Source: a virus
DNA: 20,195 nt
Strand: one strand, 5' to 3'
Virus record (IMG/VR): IMGVR_UViG_3300032073_000350
Coordinates: 1 to 20,195 of that record
Shown here piece after piece: positions 4,216-17,579 of this stretch; the first letter of the stretch is position 1, and the number at the start of each line of letters is the position of its first letter. A program made the translations under genes and the position numbers. A model generated the notes under the pieces. It worked only from the letters and a program-made list of their open reading frames with translations, did no database searches and was not told where the DNA came from.

Positions 4216-6048
4216 TTAAGTATTATAGTACGAATCACTCTCGAAGTCAAGACTTATTTTTGGTATGGTATATACAAGTACTCGTTCTGTCTTACCCTTA
4301 ACCGTAGTCTCTCCTAGTTTTTCGTACTTATATTCAGGGACATGTCTTTTAGTATTCCCTGATACTACTAAATCGGTTTCAAACTCTTTGCATTGCCCTT
4401 CTAGCCTAGAAGCAAGATTAACTGCGTCACCAATAACGCTATAGTCAAACCTACTACTAGAACCCATGTTACCGACAATACACGGTCCAGTATTGATTCC
4501 GATTCCCGTATTGATTTCAAAGCCTCTTTCGGTCCTGAGAACATTATTTAACTCCTCTAGTGCCTGCCTCATTTCTAGGGCAGCTTGTACCGCATGGTAC
4601 GCATGATCTGGATCGTCTAAGGGAGCATTCCAAAAAGCCATAATACAGTCTCCCATGTATTTATCTACAGTACCTTTATGTTTCAAAATTACATCAGTTT
4701 GGTTAGTAAGAAACTTGTTAATAAGCTCGACTAAACCTTCTGGATTGTCTTTGAATGTTTCTGAGATTGGTGTGAATCCTCTTATATCGCAAAAGAGAAA
4801 TGTCATTTCTCGTCGATCTCCACCAAGCTTTAAAAGCTCTGGATTCTTTTGCAATTTTGCCACCATCCCAGGATCTAAATAATGTTCAAACTGTTTCTTT
4901 ATTTGAAGACGCAACTTAAATTGAGTATAAAAATTAATAAAACTTGATACGGCCCACAGTACAAAAGCACTTATAACTATGAAGGACGCATCTAGCAAAA
5001 TTCCTGAGGTTGTAAAATTATAGTATACATATGAAACTGATCCTCCTATTGCAAGTAAAAGAGCAGGAACCGATAAGTATAACTTAAAAGAACAAACGGC
5101 TATGAGTACGAGAATACCTAGCAAAGCTAGTAACTCTGTTCCTTCCGTCCAGTTTGGTCTTGAAATATTATTTCCTTGTATAAGTGTGGAAATAGCTGCC
5201 GCTTGAATCTCATGCGGAGCTTTTAAGCCATCAGGTGTTGCTACTAAGGTGGACGCACCTTTAGCAGTCACACCAATTAAAACAATTGGATACTCAGTGG
5301 GATTTGTAATATAGTCTTTTGCTGACATTCTCGAAAAGTTCGTATTCCAAGTAGTCCAAATCCTGCCCCGTGCATCAGTATCAATTATAGGAAGATTTTT
5401 CACTCTAAGCTTTTCTACTCCAGTTTTGCCCGTCTTTATCGAATAAGATTTTGCTCCTACTATTGTTCTTAAAACTTCTAGGCCGAAAGAAGGGTAGATC
5501 TCGTTATCTATATTAAAAACAAGAGGCAGTCTTCGTACTAAACCATCAACTTCTGGGGCAGTAGATGTAATTCCATTCCCTTTCGCAGATTCTTCTATAG
5601 CCGGAACATTTGTTAAAACTCCATCGTACTTAAAAAGAAACGGTGTAGGATCTTCTCCCATTCTTGCAGTACCCACATGCGGGGGTCGTCCTACAAATGT
5701 AGAATTTGACGCTGCAGCCGAGACCACCACGTTCTCGGTATTAATACATTTTCCTAAATTTTTGTCTCCTCCAAATCTATCTTCCTCAGGAAATAGGACG
5801 GAAAACCCCACAACTTGTCCACCCAACAACTTACAGAAGATTTGTCGAGGCCAAGGCCATTGACCAAGTCTCTGTAAACTGTCGTCATCAATATCCACGA
5901 GTAAAATATTTTCATCCCCTATGGTAGGTAGGGTAGAAATAAAATAATCAAAAGTTTTTAAGCGAAGTGTTTCGACAGGTGCAGGATCCCAAGCCCTTAG
6001 TCCCACGAGTGCAGCAATTGTAGCTACTATGATAATAAATTTTTTCAT
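4216..6048 (-). CDS. CHASE2-domain class III adenylate cyclase
   Basis: A 610-residue membrane enzyme predicted to turn ATP into cAMP. An N-terminal signal anchor (about 4-18) is followed by a periplasmic CHASE2 sensor (about 25-300, with FDYF and WPWPR motifs), three membrane helices (about 305-321, 324-345 and 350-372) and a cytoplasmic cyclase domain (about 410-597). Metal-binding aspartates are D421 (FCDIRGF) and D467 (MGDCIM). K463 and S537 occupy the base-selecting positions, consistent with ATP. N544 and R548 in VNLASR are the transition-state residues. All key residues are present, so it should be active. Its ATG overlaps the fecR stop (ATGA), so the two are translated together. Sensor and cyclase pairs with FecR proteins are known in bacteria but not, to my knowledge, usual in phages. 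Confidence 0.9.
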   Translation of the reverse strand: MKKFIIIVATIAALVGLRAWDPAPVETLRLKTFDYFISTLPTIGDENILLVDIDDDSLQRLGQWPWPRQIFCKLLGGQVVGFSVLFPEEDRFGGDKNLGKCINTENVVVSAAASNSTFVGRPPHVGTARMGEDPTPFLFKYDGVLTNVPAIEESAKGNGITSTAPEVDGLVRRLPLVFNIDNEIYPSFGLEVLRTIVGAKSYSIKTGKTGVEKLRVKNLPIIDTDARGRIWTTWNTNFSRMSAKDYITNPTEYPIVLIGVTAKGASTLVATPDGLKAPHEIQAAAISTLIQGNNISRPNWTEGTELLALLGILVLIAVCSFKLYLSVPALLLAIGGSVSYVYYNFTTSGILLDASFIVISAFVLWAVSSFINFYTQFKLRLQIKKQFEHYLDPGMVAKLQKNPELLKLGGDRREMTFLFCDIRGFTPISETFKDNPEGLVELINKFLTNQTDVILKHKGTVDKYMGDCIMAFWNAPLDDPDHAYHAVQAALEMRQALEELNNVLRTERGFEINTGIGINTGPCIVGNMGSSSRFDYSVIGDAVNLASRLEGQCKEFETDLVVSGNTKRHVPEYKYEKLGETTVKGKTERVLVYTIPKISLDFESDSYYNT

Positions 6049-7133
6049 TGTTGTTTAATAGATATATAAATATCTCCTCCATTGTTGATAAGAATGTTGA
6101 AGGTTTCTCCACCATCATCAAGCTTGATCGTATAGCTAGTTCCAGCCATAAGTTCTAGTCTGGTAGTGTTCTCTACTTGTCTTTGTAATATTACTTGACT
6201 TCCGTCTATAAAGGTAGAGATTTGAGTCCCAGGATCAAAGCCCACGGCTGTCCCTGCAATGGAAAAGGCTGTATCCTCCTGTGGTCCTTCTTGTCTTTGT
6301 CTTTCTTTCTCCTTTTCCATTTCCTCAAAGACGTCAAGTAAGTCTCTTAAAAAGTCTACATCAAGTAAATCTATGTCTAATTCTGTAAACTCTAAGTTTT
6401 CTTCGTTTGCATCTAGTTGATCTTCTAGTAGTTCTACGTCTAGTCCATCAAAGTCTAGTAAACTTGTATTTTCTTTTGTTTGTTGAATAGTCTCTTCTTC
6501 TTCTTTGGGTGGTGAGACTATAAGCATATTGTCAATAAGTTCCAAGGTTATATCAAGTATCTTTGGAGACGACGGAGTATTTTCAGCCAAAGAAACAGTA
6601 GTGGCTTGAAAAGGCTTATTTAGGGTAACATCGCCCACCATAGAAGAAACAATAATTTCTCCTGAAGCATCTCCAAATTCATCGGGCAGTAGTATTATGA
6701 GAGTTCTTCCTAGCTCATCTACAGTTGCGGTAAAGTCAGTACCCCGAATAGCTATCTCTGCTGTAGGAGTACGAATCTTTATATTATCTTTATCTATAGT
6801 GCCGAGAGCACCAGTTATGAATCTTGCAGTTCCTGAAGCAAAAGTCAGAGCAAGTTTTGATTTGGTAGGATCTGGATCGTAGACAAACTCGTCTATTATA
6901 ATCTCAGAGTGTTCTGTAAGTTTGAGAACAGAATCGTCTAGAAATTCTAGTTCTATTCGACCTGCTGCGGTGCGAACATCATCGTAGCTTTCTATTCCAA
7001 AATCTAGAATAGCTTCGTTTTGTTCTTTGTCACGAAAAACGGCAGCATTACCAAATACATCAGTTATGCTGCCGATATTCGCACTAACAAGTTGTGGAGC
7101 CAGAACCAGACTGAATAATACAAAGAGTCGCAT
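6045..7133 (-). CDS. Secreted FecR-domain protein
   Basis: 362 residues with a signal peptide (about 1-18, cut after LVSA). A FecR domain follows (about 45-145): DDVRTAAGRIELEF, then FASGTARFITG, then IRTPTAEIAIRGTDF, the classic ending. In other bacteria FecR domains sit in the periplasm and relay signals or bind partner proteins. The rest is an unusually acidic linker (about 205-285, many Asp/Glu/Leu) and a C-terminal beta-rich part (about 290-360). The start at 7133 lies inside the last 50 bases of the curlin-like gene and gives a clean signal peptide, although no strong Shine-Dalgarno is present. Overlap with the cyclase start suggests it modulates the CHASE2 sensor (inference). Confidence 0.85.
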   Translation of the reverse strand: MRLFVLFSLVLAPQLVSANIGSITDVFGNAAVFRDKEQNEAILDFGIESYDDVRTAAGRIELEFLDDSVLKLTEHSEIIIDEFVYDPDPTKSKLALTFASGTARFITGALGTIDKDNIKIRTPTAEIAIRGTDFTATVDELGRTLIILLPDEFGDASGEIIVSSMVGDVTLNKPFQATTVSLAENTPSSPKILDITLELIDNMLIVSPPKEEEETIQQTKENTSLLDFDGLDVELLEDQLDANEENLEFTELDIDLLDVDFLRDLLDVFEEMEKEKERQRQEGPQEDTAFSIAGTAVGFDPGTQISTFIDGSQVILQRQVENTTRLELMAGTSYTIKLDDGGETFNILINNGGDIYISIKQQ

Positions 7134-7968: not shown

Positions 7969-8765
7969 TACTGTTCTCCCAGTTGAAAGGCCCAGAAGCC
8001 TTTCTCTTCTCCTTCGATAACTGTTTGGTAGACCGCAGTTTCAATAGCTTCTCTTAAAGCTATTGCACTACTCTCATTTTCAGTTGCTCCGGCTTCCAAT
8101 TCAACTAGTTGTGTACCGGCTTCTACAAATCTGAAAACGTCCCCTGACACTCCGACGGAAAGAATCTTTTTGGTCACAAGGACCTCTATTAATATTTCTC
8201 CTGTTAGAACTGAGACAGTGCGCAAAGATACAGTTACGGTATCTTCTCTAAATTCTCGGGAAGCTCCTATGCCTAATGTTCTTGCCCCCATCCCTCCTGT
8301 TCTTAAGTTTGTTTCGTAATCTACTACCCCACCTTGCATTAAAAGTCCTGCAAACAGCAGTGGGCCCAATTTGTTGTCTTCTTCAAAGTCTCTTCGAGTA
8401 CTTCTTATTATTTGACGCTCTCGTGTTATATTATCAATACCAACACGTTCTACTACTTTAAAAAACTTGCCTCCTGCGGCATGTTTTAGTGCCCGTATCA
8501 AGTATGCCTCGGGCGCTGTAGTTATGGCTGTAGAGAATAAAGCAAACTGTGAGTTGCTTTTTCTCTGGCCTGTCTTATCACCAAAAGCACCTGAATATAT
8601 CGCTATCACAGGCTGTCTGCTTGCTGGTTGTAAGTTGTATAGTTGATCTACCTTTAGAGTTGCTACCTCTGCGTTTTTTGTTGAATATGCTATCTGGCCA
8701 GTAGCACAGCTAGCCATCATCGTCGTAAACGTTAAACTGATCAACAGGCACTTCAATTTGTGTAC
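7968..8765 (-). CDS. csgG: CsgG-like outer-membrane curli secretion lipoprotein
   Basis: About 265 residues. From the GTG at 8765 the first 20 residues form a typical lipoprotein signal ending in the lipobox MASC; the same frame opens earlier at an ATG (8810), which would add 15 residues and is also possible. The mature part follows the CsgG pattern: VIAIYSGAFGDKTGQRK near the start, LIRALKHAAGGKFFKVVER, then TVSLRTVSVLTGEILIEV near the C-terminal third. CsgG forms a nonameric pore that exports curli subunits. The gene overlaps the end of csgF and touches the curlin-like gene, giving the order csgF-csgG-curlin. Size is close to the usual 277 residues. Confidence 0.9.
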   Translation of the reverse strand, partial: VHKLKCLLISLTFTTMMASCATGQIAYSTKNAEVATLKVDQLYNLQPASRQPVIAIYSGAFGDKTGQRKSNSQFALFSTAITTAPEAYLIRALKHAAGGKFFKVVERVGIDNITRERQIIRSTRRDFEEDNKLGPLLFAGLLMQGGVVDYETNLRTGGMGARTLGIGASREFREDTVTVSLRTVSVLTGEILIEVLVTKKILSVGVSGDVFRFVEAGTQLVELEAGATENESSAIALREAIETAVYQTVIEGEEKGFWAFQLGEQ

Positions 8766-9234
8766 ATAGGTCGCTTTCTTCACAGCTTTCAAAAGTTCCG
8801 TCTTCACCATATTTACCAGGATAAGTCTCCATAATGAGCCTACCGTCTAGCATATAGTACCTGATATAATAATCCTCGCTTGTAAAGTAAAATCTGCTCT
8901 CGAAGTCGTCTCCGAGCGCTCCACCTTCAAACAGACTTTCGACTAACTCTTTTGAAAGTCTAGAATATATCCTGCTTTCAAAGTTGCGAAGAAACTTGTT
9001 AATAGTGCTGTTTTCTTCTTCGCGCTCCAGTTCATCGAGTCTTGCTTGAATTTCTGCTTGCAGCTCTTTTTTTCGGTTTGTCTCTTGATTCTCTATCGTC
9101 AAGTAATGACTTGATGTGTTGATCCCGCTGAACGACGGGCTCTTGAATTTGTGAGTCATCTGGTCTGCTTCCGCTATTGTCGGAGCTATTAATAAAGCTA
9201 TTATCGCTATTACCACTTTTATGCCGTTTTTCAT
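8710..9234 (-). CDS. csgF: CsgF-like curli assembly factor
   Basis: 174 residues from ATG 9234 (an upstream ATG at 9249 is in frame but would spoil the signal peptide). A signal peptide (about 1-23, IAEA) precedes THKFKSPSFSGINTSSHYLT, which matches the conserved start of mature CsgF that plugs into the CsgG constriction. A charged helix (about 60-80) and a C-terminal domain with YYIRYYMLDGRL and two cysteines (ESCEESDLCTQ) follow. CsgF ties secretion to nucleation at the cell surface. The first 203 bases overlap, in another frame, the coding sequence of the membrane protein upstream, and its end overlaps csgG. Confidence 0.84.
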   Translation of the reverse strand: MKNGIKVVIAIIALLIAPTIAEADQMTHKFKSPSFSGINTSSHYLTIENQETNRKKELQAEIQARLDELEREEENSTINKFLRNFESRIYSRLSKELVESLFEGGALGDDFESRFYFTSEDYYIRYYMLDGRLIMETYPGKYGEDGTFESCEESDLCTQIEVPVDQFNVYDDDG

Positions 9235-9454
9235 ATTCAAGCACCACATTTACTTTTTGCTGCAAACGAATTAAATCATTGTCAAGCATTCGTACTTGGT
9301 CAATGACTTTGATCAAGCTTAAGTGAGATTTTTCTAACTTTGGCGTGATCTGTTCTGTAACGTATTTCCAAATGTAGTAGATATAGTAGCCCATACCTAC
9401 TGCCATAACTATTGGAAAACCAAACTTTTGTATAGCATCAATCGCGTCTTGCAT
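9032..9454 (-). CDS. Membrane-anchored coiled-coil protein, paralog of the upstream gene
   Basis: 140 residues from ATG 9454, chosen because this start aligns with the paralog encoded at 9438-9716; ATGs at 9466, 9502 and 9511 are alternatives. One membrane helix (about 13-30, GFPIVMAVGMGYYIYYI) leads to a probable coiled coil (about 40-75, with VRMLDNDLIRLQQKV) and a long polar tail rich in Ser, Asp, Lys and Arg. The tail is read from the DNA that also encodes the start of csgF in another frame. Topology resembles an inner-membrane spanin or holin-associated protein, which is inference. Confidence 0.62.
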   Translation of the reverse strand: MQDAIDAIQKFGFPIVMAVGMGYYIYYIWKYVTEQITPKLEKSHLSLIKVIDQVRMLDNDLIRLQQKVNVVLEYEKRHKSGNSDNSFINSSDNSGSRPDDSQIQEPVVQRDQHIKSLLDDRESRDKPKKRAASRNSSKTR

Positions 9455-14374: not shown

Positions 14375-15016
14375 ATGAATAAATTAGAAACCCAACAGGC
14401 TCGGCTCAACCAAATCGTAATGTCAAAAGACTTCGGTCCGACTGCGATTGTGCTTGAAGGTCGTGATACTGCGGGCAAATCATCTACGATCCGAGAGGTT
14501 ACCCACTACTTGCCTGTAAGCAAATTTGGTGTACAGCTATCTGCCAAACCTAGTCAAAAAACTATGGAAAGCTGGCTAGATTACTGGGGTACCAAAATGC
14601 CGTCAGGCAAGCAGATGGTATTCTACGACCGATCTTGGTACTCAAGAGCAATGGTACAAAAGATCAATGGCTGGTGCTCTAACGACCAGTATCAGGATTT
14701 CATGGAAGATGTAAATTTTTGGGAGAAAGCACAAGCTCCTGTTCGAATGGTTAAGTTCTGGCTGTCTATCAGCGAAGAAGAACAGGCTAGCAGATTGGCT
14801 GAGAGGAAAGTATCCCCGCTCAAATTTTGGAAGTTGTCCCCAAACGACGAGCGAGCATTATCATATTACGACGAGATGACCCTACTCAAAGAAAGGGTAT
14901 TGACAACTACTAACAATTGGTATACAATTAACTACAACAACAAGCCAGAGGGACGACTAGCTCTTATCACAAAACTCTGCGACATACTGGAGACAAAAAG
15001 TGAAAAAAGTTCTTGA
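14375..15016 (+). CDS. ppk2: Polyphosphate kinase 2 family protein
   Basis: 213 residues; PPK2 enzymes move phosphate between polyphosphate and nucleoside mono- or diphosphates. Walker A is EGRDTAGKSS (28-37), matching the PPK2 pattern EGRDAAGKGG. The second motif YDRSWYSRAMV (84-94) parallels the family's NRSWYNRAGV, with D85 and R86. The lid SRLAERKVSPLKFWKLSPND (139-158) has the expected Arg/Lys set and the WKLSP signature. It is slightly shorter than typical PPK2 (about 230-300) but lacks no core motif. Likely role: making ADP/ATP or GDP/GTP from polyphosphate for phage synthesis; class cannot be assigned by eye. The end of the gene overlaps the next promoter. Confidence 0.88.
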   Translation: MNKLETQQARLNQIVMSKDFGPTAIVLEGRDTAGKSSTIREVTHYLPVSKFGVQLSAKPSQKTMESWLDYWGTKMPSGKQMVFYDRSWYSRAMVQKINGWCSNDQYQDFMEDVNFWEKAQAPVRMVKFWLSISEEEQASRLAERKVSPLKFWKLSPNDERALSYYDEMTLLKERVLTTTNNWYTINYNNKPEGRLALITKLCDILETKSEKSS

Positions 15017-15077: not shown

Positions 15078-15407
15078 ATGGCAGATTCAGCAGTTAACTA
15101 CACTGAAGAGATGGTATCAACCATGGTCGATCAGTACGAAGCTGAGCCTACAATGGCAACTGTAGAAGCATTAGCAGGACAGTTCGACAAGCCAAAGCGC
15201 AGCATCATTTCTAAGCTGTCTAACATTGGCATCTACATTCCTGCAAGCAAGGGCAAAACCAAAACTGGTGCTCCTGTAGTTCGCAAGGACGAGCTGGTAG
15301 CTGAGATTCAAGCATCACTTGGTGTGGAAGTACCTACTCTTGCCAAGGCTACTAAAGGTGACCTAGAAAAATTGTTGGGAGCACTTTCAATAGTATCTAC
15401 ACAGTAA
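15078..15407 (+). CDS. Putative DNA-binding protein, paralog 2 of 3
   Basis: 109 residues from ATG 15078 with GGGAGA upstream; the frame opens earlier at 15000, but that would begin inside the PPK2 gene and before this promoter. It has NYTEEMVSTMVDQY, then a helix-turn-helix-like part ending in KPKRSIISKLSNIGIYIPA (about 44-62), a basic TKTG linker and a C-terminal helix pair (KDELVAEIQASLG; KGDLEKLLGAL). It is the clearest member of the three-copy family in this window. A regulator of phage transcription is a reasonable guess. Confidence 0.75.
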   Translation: MADSAVNYTEEMVSTMVDQYEAEPTMATVEALAGQFDKPKRSIISKLSNIGIYIPASKGKTKTGAPVVRKDELVAEIQASLGVEVPTLAKATKGDLEKLLGALSIVSTQ

Positions 15408-15410
15408 TTC

Positions 15411-15760
15411 GCTGAAACTAAAGTAGGGTTGAGTGGACGGGGGTTCGATTCCCCCCTCCTCCACCATAAGAGCATCAAGGTGCTTTTATGATGGGGGAGC
15501 ATGGTTTCGACAAGCAATCTCAGGTTAGTGGAGAATCGGTGAGCAACCTACCGTAAATGGAAGAACCTAAATTAAACGCAAACGATGACGTTTATTCTCT
15601 AGCTGCATAAGCTAGCGGGCAAGGCCTCTCGGCTTGTTATCCAAAGGAGAGGCACTCAGAAAGCATACTGGGAAGACCGCGACCGTCCCCTGCGTAGGGA
15701 TGGATATGTCAGAAAAGATCGGGGAGAAGCAGATCGTGACCCCAGCCCAGTATGTTTTCT
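15411..15760 (+). ncRNA. ssrA: Circularly permuted tmRNA (ssrA)
   Basis: tmRNA rescues stalled ribosomes and tags the protein for degradation. Here the 3' acceptor piece comes first: T-arm GGGGG-TTCGATT-CCCCC, acceptor strand CTCCTCC and encoded ACCA end at 15466. The 5' piece begins at 15493 with GGGGGAG, which pairs with CTCCTCC and contains the G3-U70 wobble that marks alanine charging. D-loop-like TGGTTTCGAC follows. A 26-base segment between the pieces forms a nine-pair hairpin (ATAAGAGCA/TGCTTTTAT) likely removed by processing. The tag frame is 15578-15610. A 13-pair helix (15660-15672 with 15746-15758, one G-U) encloses the later pseudoknots. Outer ends are approximate. Permutation is typical of Alphaproteobacteria and cyanobacteria. 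Confidence 0.93.
15578..15610 (+). other. tmRNA tag frame, peptide ANDDVYSLAA
   Basis: Resume codon GCA at 15578, then ten sense codons and TAA: A-N-D-D-V-Y-S-L-A-A. It ends in the LAA protease signal and resembles the E. coli tag ANDENYALAA; alphaproteobacterial tags are usually longer. Confidence 0.92.
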
Positions 15761-16401: not shown

Positions 16402-16621
16402 AGGAAAGAGACCTGCGAAGATTGCTTCGCAAAAAGTAGTAAGTCGAAAGCGTATGCTTGATGATAAGGAAGTATTCCCGATCCGAGTAGTAAGCCGACG
16501 AGAAGGTATGAAGTACGACATCATGGGTGGATTCACCCGAGAAGGTCGTGACACCATGACAACCATCTATGGTAGTGATGGATACCCTGTTCCTTTCAAA
16601 AAGATTGGAAAATTAGTTTAA
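16394..16621 (+). CDS. Unknown 75-residue basic protein
   Basis: MARGKRPAKIASQKVVSRKR start, then a mixed beta region (FPIRVVSRREGMKYDIMGGF, TMTTIYGSDGYPVPF). Basic N-terminus may bind nucleic acid. No family recognised. Last gene of a three-gene overlapping set. Confidence 0.68.
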   Translation: MARGKRPAKIASQKVVSRKRMLDDKEVFPIRVVSRREGMKYDIMGGFTREGRDTMTTIYGSDGYPVPFKKIGKLV

Positions 16622-16639
16622 CCTTAGCAAAAATAATTG

Positions 16640-16668
16640 TTGACAGAAAGGTTATTTTTTGAGATAAT
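16640..16668 (+). promoter_or_regulatory. Promoter of the large structured RNA
   Basis: TTGACA (16640-16645), 17 bases, GATAAT (16663-16668), with AAAAATAATTG upstream. No open frame of useful size follows. Confidence 0.75.
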
Positions 16669-16674
16669 ATCTTT

Positions 16675-17182
16675 TCAAAATTAAGGGAATGAAGATTCGT
16701 TCTTCATTGAGTAGAGAATCTACTCCGGTGATCCGCTGCTGCCCAAGCCGGCGTTAAGGTTCCTTGCGAGTGAGAGAATTCGAAAAAAGTATCACTGCCG
16801 CCTGAGCACTGCGTTACAAGCTCCGCACATAATTGCTATCAATTGCTATGTTTGTGTGTAAACACGCTCTGGAACTATCCCCACAGCCAGAGTAGGGAAA
16901 CGACAATAATGTGTCTGTGAGTCGTTTGCGAATGGGAAGAGAGGAGGTACCCCATTCATCTTTAATAACTAAAAGGAGAACAGTTGCTGGGCCGGACATC
17001 GCGTAAGCATAAGAGCCGGAAGTCGACGGAGTCATCGAGAGCAGTAATTCCTAGTCCTGACTAGCTAGCAGGAGCCACAGCTTAATTTAGGTAGCCCGCT
17101 TCGCTCATCGTGAGGTGAGATAAACGAAGAGTACTCAACTGGGAAATGCCCTAAGGTGTCCAAGCCTTGGGGCATTTTTTTA
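16675..17182 (+). ncRNA. Large structured noncoding RNA, about 500 nt, unknown class
   Basis: A promoter on the left and a strong terminator on the right enclose about 500 bases without a credible gene. The strand is full of hairpins: AATGAAGA/TCTTCATT (16688-16708), GAGTAGA/TCTACTC (16709-16725), CTCTGG/CCAGAG (16867-16892), AAACGAC/GTCGTTT (16898-16927), GAATGGG/CCCATTC (16930-16957), CTAGT/ACTAG (about 17052-17065), and CTTCG/CGAAG around CTCATC-GTGA-GGTGAG with a GNRA loop (17099-17129). Size and density recall the ornate large RNAs of phages (GOLLD, ROOL), but I cannot match the sequence to either. RNase P, group I intron and tRNA signatures were sought and not found. Confidence 0.75.
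17144..17182 (+). terminator. Strong Rho-independent terminator
   Basis: A 13-pair stem (17144-17156 with 17165-17177, one G-U) and an eight-base loop end in a run of Ts. It closes the structured RNA. Confidence 0.9.
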
Positions 17183-17202
17183 TACCTATTCAAAAAAATT
17201 TC

Positions 17203-17231
17203 TTGACAATTTTTCTCACGTCTATTATAAT
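17203..17231 (+). promoter_or_regulatory. Consensus promoter of the last plus-strand operon
   Basis: TTGACA (17203-17208), 17 bases, TATAAT (17226-17231), then AAGGAGAAA before the ATG at 17253. A/T-rich CAAAAAAATTTC lies upstream of the -35. Confidence 0.82.
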
Positions 17232-17252
17232 ATATCGCACAAGGAGAAAAAT

Positions 17253-17579
17253 ATGGCTACAATAATACCATTTCCCGAAAAAGATACCCTAAAGGCCAAG
17301 CTAGAAGATAGTATGGGAGAAATGCGTATGTCTCTAATAGAGATGTATGAGGCTCTCGATAAGGTTGAAAAAGGGTTTACAGTTATACAAAATCAAGCTC
17401 ATGAGATGGAGGACTCCTATCAGGAATTGATGAAGTTGTATATCGAAGAAGTAGGTGAGGATAATGTCCCTCTCGAATGGTTAGACTTTTGTCCCTATGT
17501 TGGAATGACCCGAGATGCAACTACGGGTGAAATTAAAATAACTTTGGTAAACCCAAAAGACTTGGAGAAAGATAAATGA
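17253..17579 (+). CDS. Unknown 108-residue protein with coiled-coil character
   Basis: MATIIPFPEKDTLKAKLEDS start; residues about 10-70 are a long charged helix (coiled-coil prone) followed by WLDFCPYVGMTRD and a beta-like end. It is the first gene of an operon of four overlapping genes. No known domain is recognised; the acidic nature suggests a protein-protein rather than DNA role. Confidence 0.72.
   Translation: MATIIPFPEKDTLKAKLEDSMGEMRMSLIEMYEALDKVEKGFTVIQNQAHEMEDSYQELMKLYIEEVGEDNVPLEWLDFCPYVGMTRDATTGEIKITLVNPKDLEKDK

Follow-up and report, generated by a model that had tools for sequence, protein, structure and literature searches.

The question raised by this locus is whether a gap of about 500 nucleotides (nt) in a viral genome record encodes a large structured RNA and, if so, of which class. 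The gap occupies positions 16675-17182 of the IMG/VR virus record IMGVR_UViG_3300032073_000350, whose whole length of 20,195 bases was analyzed here and is called the window. A preliminary description made from the letters alone had proposed a large ornate RNA, either a new class or a divergent member of a known one such as GOLLD or ROOL. We find that the ornate RNA is almost certainly a real new class of structured RNA: this half of the proposal fits the data better, and divergent GOLLD or ROOL membership fits less well. The class and the fold are well supported; the mechanism, weighed further below, we infer.

The real evidence for structure is covariation. The RNA has the following parts, R1 being a covariance model of the central core (166 positions) and M2 a module described below:

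16675-17181, + strand: the large structured RNA, whole transcript, as drawn from sequence, fold and homologs
16688-16725, + strand: variable 5' domain with two hairpins, at 16688-16708 and at 16709-16725; relatives have unrelated sequence or M2 in its place
16769-16796, + strand: helix H0 (AGUGA/UCACU) with a conserved AAAGU(A/G) in its loop; by eye, the arms change together in relatives
16799-16961, + strand: central core matched by R1 (H1, H2, M3 hairpin, H4, H6 and H7), drawn from covariation and an unguided helix scan
16804-16807/16820-16823, + strand: core helix H1
16824-16829/16853-16858, + strand: core helix H2
16835-16836/16845-16846, + strand: core M3 hairpin, two base pairs
16867-16872/16887-16892, + strand: core helix H4
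16898-16904/16921-16927, + strand: core helix H6
16930-16936/16951-16957, + strand: core helix H7
16880-16897, + strand: predicted pseudoknot that encloses the 3' arm of H4 and pairs the loop CCC (16880-16882) with GGG (16895-16897)
16937-16950, + strand: H7 loop AAGAGAGGAGGUAC, Shine-Dalgarno-like in the window and variable in relatives (UAGGCGG, UAGGUAGG, AAGGUGG)
16971-16978, + strand: AAAAGGAG, between the core and the 3' domain; the tRNA insertion of one relative, L014, falls just before it
16981-17141, + strand: 3' domain closed by CAGUUG/CAACUG (16981-16986/17136-17141), drawn from covariation
16992-17019, 17024-17037 and 17099-17129, + strand: parts of the 3' domain, namely a GNRA-capped arm, a small hairpin and a hairpin whose tip (17104-17119) carries a conserved GUGA loop

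In an R1 alignment of 27 rows (25 distinct), fitted to the structure, 95.6% of the cells at core pairs are paired against 62.0% in shuffled controls, and the covariation score reaches 0.649 against 0.174 for shuffles and 0.05-0.10 for slid partners. Compensatory changes occur at all 30 core pairs. A sequence-only MAFFT alignment of eight rows displays double changes at 31 of 78 pairs, and an unguided scan for antiparallel covarying runs (22 rows of the model-fitted alignment) places the proposed helices alone at the top, with 14-57 double changes against five or fewer for anything else. The AAAGT columns of the H0 loop are invariant in the eight-row MAFFT alignment A5, in which the CCC/GGG pseudoknot is paired in every row and shows no variation. 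Covariation extends to the 3' domain, where 90.5% of the cells in 11 rows are paired against 82.2% in shuffles (score 0.352 against 0.183); further pair types there are not in excess, as 158 of 500 shuffles reach their number. We do not take the single-sequence folding energy as proof, because it is only modestly unusual (z -2.66, one of 100 shuffles as good) and the - strand folds nearly as well (z -2.39, none of 100).

Relatives of the RNA were sought through its sequence, its structure and its neighbors, two of which serve as landmarks:

17253-17579, + strand: conserved small gene after the RNA, with its own promoter, used in part to find relatives of the slot
15370-15701, + strand: permuted transfer-messenger RNA (tmRNA) with tag ANDDVYSLAA, called by ARAGORN; Rfam RF04321 matches 15406-15610 at 115.3 bits

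The product of the downstream gene led to the contig L002, which has the same slot with a diverged RNA and its own promoter and terminator. Searches with the polyphosphate kinase PPK2 and with the downstream gene returned 80 and 13 loci, respectively, and blastn added seven other, distinct contigs that carry the RNA (L009, L010, L012, L014, L022, L093 and L030); the product of the upstream gene, used as a query, returned no relatives. A two-sequence DNA pattern (GAGCCACAGCTTA...) picked up a single true relative; its five other matches (L004-L008) fell in coding sequence by chance and were dismissed. R1 was run over 92, then 48, then 39 sources; at E<=1e-3 it detects 24 distinct loci, one of them in the window. 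This count leaves out L013, identical to L012 over the RNA, and contains three pairs that share core sequence on different contigs (L096/L097, L114/L117 and L116/L118). The weak loci L020, L018 and L016 stand outside it, as do L015, L017, L019 and L102 (M2 in the same slot). An apparent second R1 copy in the record G008 (21.6 bits) we regard as false, since it lies partly over a reading frame and does not have the layout of the family. Searches of cultured phages detected homologs of neither the RNA nor the downstream gene, the few weak matches being short chance or promoter matches.

The position of the RNA is conserved along with its fold. The downstream small gene is present in 18 of the 24 loci; none was found in L114, L116, L117, L118 and L143, and L032 ends too soon. 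Thirteen of the 24 have a tmRNA, a tRNA or both within 3 kb upstream, and several others are cut by contig ends. Four loci (L101, L105, L132 and L138) were found via a DNA pattern for M2 and not via a flanking gene, and all of them still have the downstream gene. Where the terminator directly follows the RNA, its length varies from about 285 to 654 nt.

The RNA slot of the window lies between a small basic gene that ends at 16621 and the gene starting at 17253, and is bounded by transcription signals of its own:

16640-16668, + strand: promoter TTGACA-17-GATAAT with an extended -10 (TG), found at the equivalent place in homologs
17144-17181, + strand: intrinsic terminator, a long hairpin (17144-17176) followed by a T-run to 17181, present in the minimum-energy fold

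Transcription would start at about 16675. The promoter has 11 of 12 consensus matches and a TG before the second hexamer; promoter-like sites over the whole region show no excess over shuffles (8 against 7.6 +/- 3.1), and what lends the site weight is solely its recurrence: of 27 homologous loci (the 24 supported by R1 and three weak ones), 25 have a promoter in the corresponding position. Of the two exceptions, L154 belongs to a contig that begins inside the RNA, and in L030 the regular expression missed a site that reads by eye as TTGACT-18-TATAAT. A simple terminator scan of the window did not list the terminator at 17144-17181; a T-run followed 20-22 nt on by the next promoter is seen in 26 of the 27 loci. 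No open reading frame (ORF) of at least 60 amino acids (aa) lies on the + strand within the RNA stretch of about 505 nt, and the - strand has one of 73 aa at 16814-17035. In the 25 loci with a defined transcript the longest stop-free stretches span 45-114 aa on the + strand and 40-112 aa on the - strand. The preliminary description was thus right about an own promoter and a terminator, about the lack of a gene (the ORF on the - strand aside) and about at least seven hairpins, the GNRA-capped CUCAUC-GUGA-GGUGAG at 17104-17119 among them; its distance of 0.9 kb after the tmRNA is measured as about 0.97 kb from the ARAGORN end at 15701, with the tmRNA upstream.

Of the two checks suggested at the outset, covariation among homologs gave the strong signal in the core and the 3' domain reported above, and the search of Rfam returned no known family. 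At gathering thresholds the tmRNA is the only Rfam 15 match in the window, with nothing in 16675-17182, and a lax scan of 16600-17260 (matches listed at E<=5) gives four chance-level matches, GOLLD and ROOL not among them. Both models were also searched by name in five records at E<=10: ROOL (RF03087) has no match, in a search where no control genome matched either and whose sensitivity is therefore not shown, and GOLLD (RF02032) has none in the window and a single 5.1-bit match elsewhere, in the record G007. Rfam scans of the relatives give no credible match inside the ornate RNAs except the L014 tRNA, and the riboswitch models match neither the ornate RNA nor, in the loci scanned, M2. The tRNA-like domain and tag reading frame of a tmRNA are found by neither ARAGORN nor Rfam in 16675-17182. 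Our searches of open PMC papers brought up no description of the ornate RNA, nor of the single-copy module that it trades with the tmRNA locus.

As a comparison of kind, the earlier reference to GOLLD and ROOL is apt: the ornate RNA is phage-encoded, lies near tRNA or tmRNA genes, has a variable peripheral domain and in L014 contains an embedded tRNA. In PMC12286853, GOLLD is described as a large phage RNA near tRNA genes, with one conserved and one variable domain and sometimes tRNAs in its linker, and ROOL as a large ornate RNA of phages and prophages, often near tRNA islands, with a pseudoknot and a variable linker; both form RNA-only cages. The window RNA resembles GOLLD in its phage origin, its tRNA neighborhood and the tRNA inside one member, which is a resemblance and not membership: it is shorter, has other helices and no match to the GOLLD model, and holds a module in common with the tmRNA locus. 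With ROOL it has in common the large ornate form, the frequent proximity to tRNAs, a pseudoknot (here predicted) and a variable part, whereas its core differs and the ROOL model does not match it. The parallel is one of setting, size class and anatomy, not of sequence or fold. The permuted tmRNA (RF04321) of the same phages is an adjacent gene with M2 and an insert of about 104 nt (L002/L033) in common, but the ornate RNA has no tRNA-like end, tag reading frame or tmRNA match inside. An extra structured RNA domain is also reported at the tail of the permuted tmRNA of the methylophage Melnitz (PMC9004378); R1 and R2, the covariance model of M2, both have no match in Melnitz (MZ577097).

Relatives have swapped both their 5' and their 3' domains. 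The 3' part of the window RNA is 86% identical to L009 over 373 nt, and its 5' 125 nt have no match to L009 but match L132, L022 and L105 at 77-78%. In L014 an insertion of about 80 nt places a tRNA inside the ornate RNA (L014 9343-9417), between H7 and the 3' domain; ARAGORN calls it with a four-base anticodon, gtta, and the Rfam tRNA model gives 52.6 bits. One more exchangeable piece, the module M2 of about 80 nt, carries the exact 17-mer GATAAGGCAGTAAAGAT and opens 13 homologs. A viral scan for the 17-mer returned 49 stretches, of which some are coding sequence matched by chance, and an extended M2 pattern had no match in the genome collection. M2 shows covariation of its own: in 13 rows 99.0% of the cells are paired against 79.8% in shuffles (score 0.565 against 0.182). 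R2 gives 43 matches over 92 sources, 42 of them at E<1e-8 and each in a different source. The window copy, which was not among the sequences used to build R2, does not lie on the ornate RNA:

15667-15752, + strand: M2 copy at the tail of the tmRNA locus, overlapping the tmRNA end (R2, 43.1 bits, E 1.8e-9)

In the sources examined, the placement is an either/or one. Among 22 that are R1-positive, M2 stands at the 5' end of the ornate RNA in 13 and elsewhere in seven, is missing from two and is never found in both places. The seven comprise the tmRNA tail in the window, L009, L010, L012 and L014, a site just after the tmRNA in L030 and one before tRNA-Cys in L096; the two without M2 are L095 and L154, whose 5' part is off the contig. 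Ten whole records carry exactly one M2 (seven) or none (three). L002 and L033 share a second piece of about 104 nt at 95% identity, which lies in the tmRNA insert of the former (2388-2491) and in the RNA region of the latter (4329-4432).

Several further observations concern M2 and the RNAs around it. Its variable P3 arm contains short tandem repeats (TACTTGATACAGTTTTG-like) that differ in number (L118 6419-6562, L116 8305-8431, L143 2401-2561). L119 (10585-11250) and L129 (7349-7900) have other large RNA regions headed by M2, with promoter and terminator and no R1 core match; these are apparently further RNA classes in a similar slot. A hairpin motif, AATTGGTAT..ATTCCTATG (core part M3), occurs beside M2 with the rest of the core absent in L137 (7000-7205), L147 (2709-2891, - strand), L130 and L106. 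L116 carries two tmRNA genes with different tag peptides, at 579-877 and 6532-6902 (- strand).

The window belongs to a phage whose terminase is closest to those of Pectobacterium phage My1 and like phages (about 48% identity over 99% of the protein); such phages we take to be T5-like, and with them presumably the window terminase. Upstream of the tmRNA lies the PPK2 gene (14375-15016, Pfam PF03976), which stays near the tmRNA and the ornate RNA in several relatives. On the - strand the phage record encodes the curli secretion proteins CsgG (PF03783, E 5.6e-43) and CsgF (PF10614, E 6.8e-11) at 7971-9249, and at 4219-6048 a protein with CHASE2 and adenylate/guanylate cyclase domains beside a FecR-domain protein. 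A curli operon is also mentioned for Melnitz in PMC9004378.

What the RNA does can be read in several ways. That it is no RNA gene, and the gap merely holds chance hairpins, is scarcely credible: the weak folding energy and the ordinary number of promoter-like sites would agree with this, but the covariation of core and 3' domain and the conserved position contradict it. A leader or riboswitch-like element acting in cis on the downstream small gene was considered because of Melnitz, whose ssrA 3' domain is reported to hold a glutamine riboswitch (PMC9004378), so that riboswitches do occur at such loci; in L114, moreover, the core runs directly into a Shine-Dalgarno sequence and an ORF. We regard this as very unlikely, and lowered it after the Rfam scan, in which no riboswitch model matches, and the locus survey: in 26 of 27 loci the RNA is separated from the gene by a T-run terminator followed by another promoter, the short ORF of the L114/L116 type precedes that terminator, and the downstream genes differ between subgroups.

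Two other readings tie the RNA to translation. It could be a ribosome-directed regulator in which the AGGAGG of the H7 loop and AAAAGGAG bind the tail of 16S rRNA and, in the course of infection, either tie up 30S subunits or draw them in. Most members that have a 3' domain contain an AAAGGAG-like stretch, GGAGG recurs in the H7 loop of the window clade, L030, L095, L096 and L020, the locus is translation-related (tmRNA, tRNAs), and ribosomes are reported to bind GOLLD in pull-downs (PMC12286853). The complementarity of the H7 loop is not kept, however, as UAGGCGG, UAGGCAGG, UAGGUAGG, AAGGUGG and UAGGUUGG occur, and a start codon, as read by eye, does not consistently follow; because the AGGAGG loop of the window varies in relatives, an anti-Shine-Dalgarno function appears unlikely. 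An accessory role in trans-translation, with the ornate RNA as a partner that brings the function of M2 when the tmRNA itself is without it, is doubtful, if somewhat less so. Such a partnership agrees with the placement of M2 (on the ornate RNA, or else at the tmRNA tail or close by, with none of 22 sources having both), with the piece common to L002 and L033 and with the constant neighborhood. Against it, M2 also occurs where no tmRNA was detected (e.g. L041, L045, L119 and L129, though these are fragments), and its sharing is perhaps mere recombination between neighboring RNA genes.

The explanation we prefer is a stable RNA scaffold that would be made in quantity during infection from a translation-support locus (PPK2, tmRNA and tRNAs). 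In this view the rigid core would do the assembling, and the parts that are exchanged, namely M2, the 3' domain and sometimes a tRNA, may serve as cargo or docking modules. That a phage carries one M2, placed on the tmRNA or else on the scaffold, suggests a trans-acting module that serves the same pathway in either place, although recombination between neighboring RNA genes could also produce the either/or pattern. By itself the scaffold role, proposed by analogy with GOLLD and ROOL, is a tentative suggestion that may well be wrong; the joint claim, that this structured phage RNA is large, transcribed on its own and of a new class and has a scaffold role of this kind, we consider evenly balanced.

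Several points weigh against the scaffold explanation or narrow its basis. In loci of the L114/L116 type no terminator directly follows the core, and a Shine-Dalgarno sequence and a short ORF come next (read in L114), so that the core may be an mRNA leader there. The five window-type cases of M2 at the tmRNA tail form one close clade, which supplies most of the examples of this placement. Part of the synteny is there by construction, since many relatives were found via neighboring genes. The predicted CCC/GGG pseudoknot is mostly invariant and stays unproven by covariation. The L020, L018 and L016 group (16.7-19.7 bits) rests on position and shape and not on score, because an R1 match that we judge false reached 21.6 bits.

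To our knowledge, few classes of very large structured RNAs of bacteria and phages have been recognized, and the functions of GOLLD and ROOL, whose nanocages are a 14-mer and an octamer, respectively, are still open. At its most speculative, and we think it improbable, the scaffold explanation extends to a modular RNA kit of these phages, in which scaffold and tmRNA would trade M2, a docking module present in single copy, along with other pieces. The scaffold would assemble into a particle made of RNA, with tmRNA, tRNA or ribosomes as its translation cargo, and would be the third RNA of the nanocage type, evolved independently of GOLLD and ROOL. An unrelated phage class whose core is defined, which has 24 supported loci and whose domains are swapped in nature is a separate system in which the role of such RNAs can be studied, and the either/or placement of M2 gives a lead to function that ties the ornate RNA to ribosome rescue.
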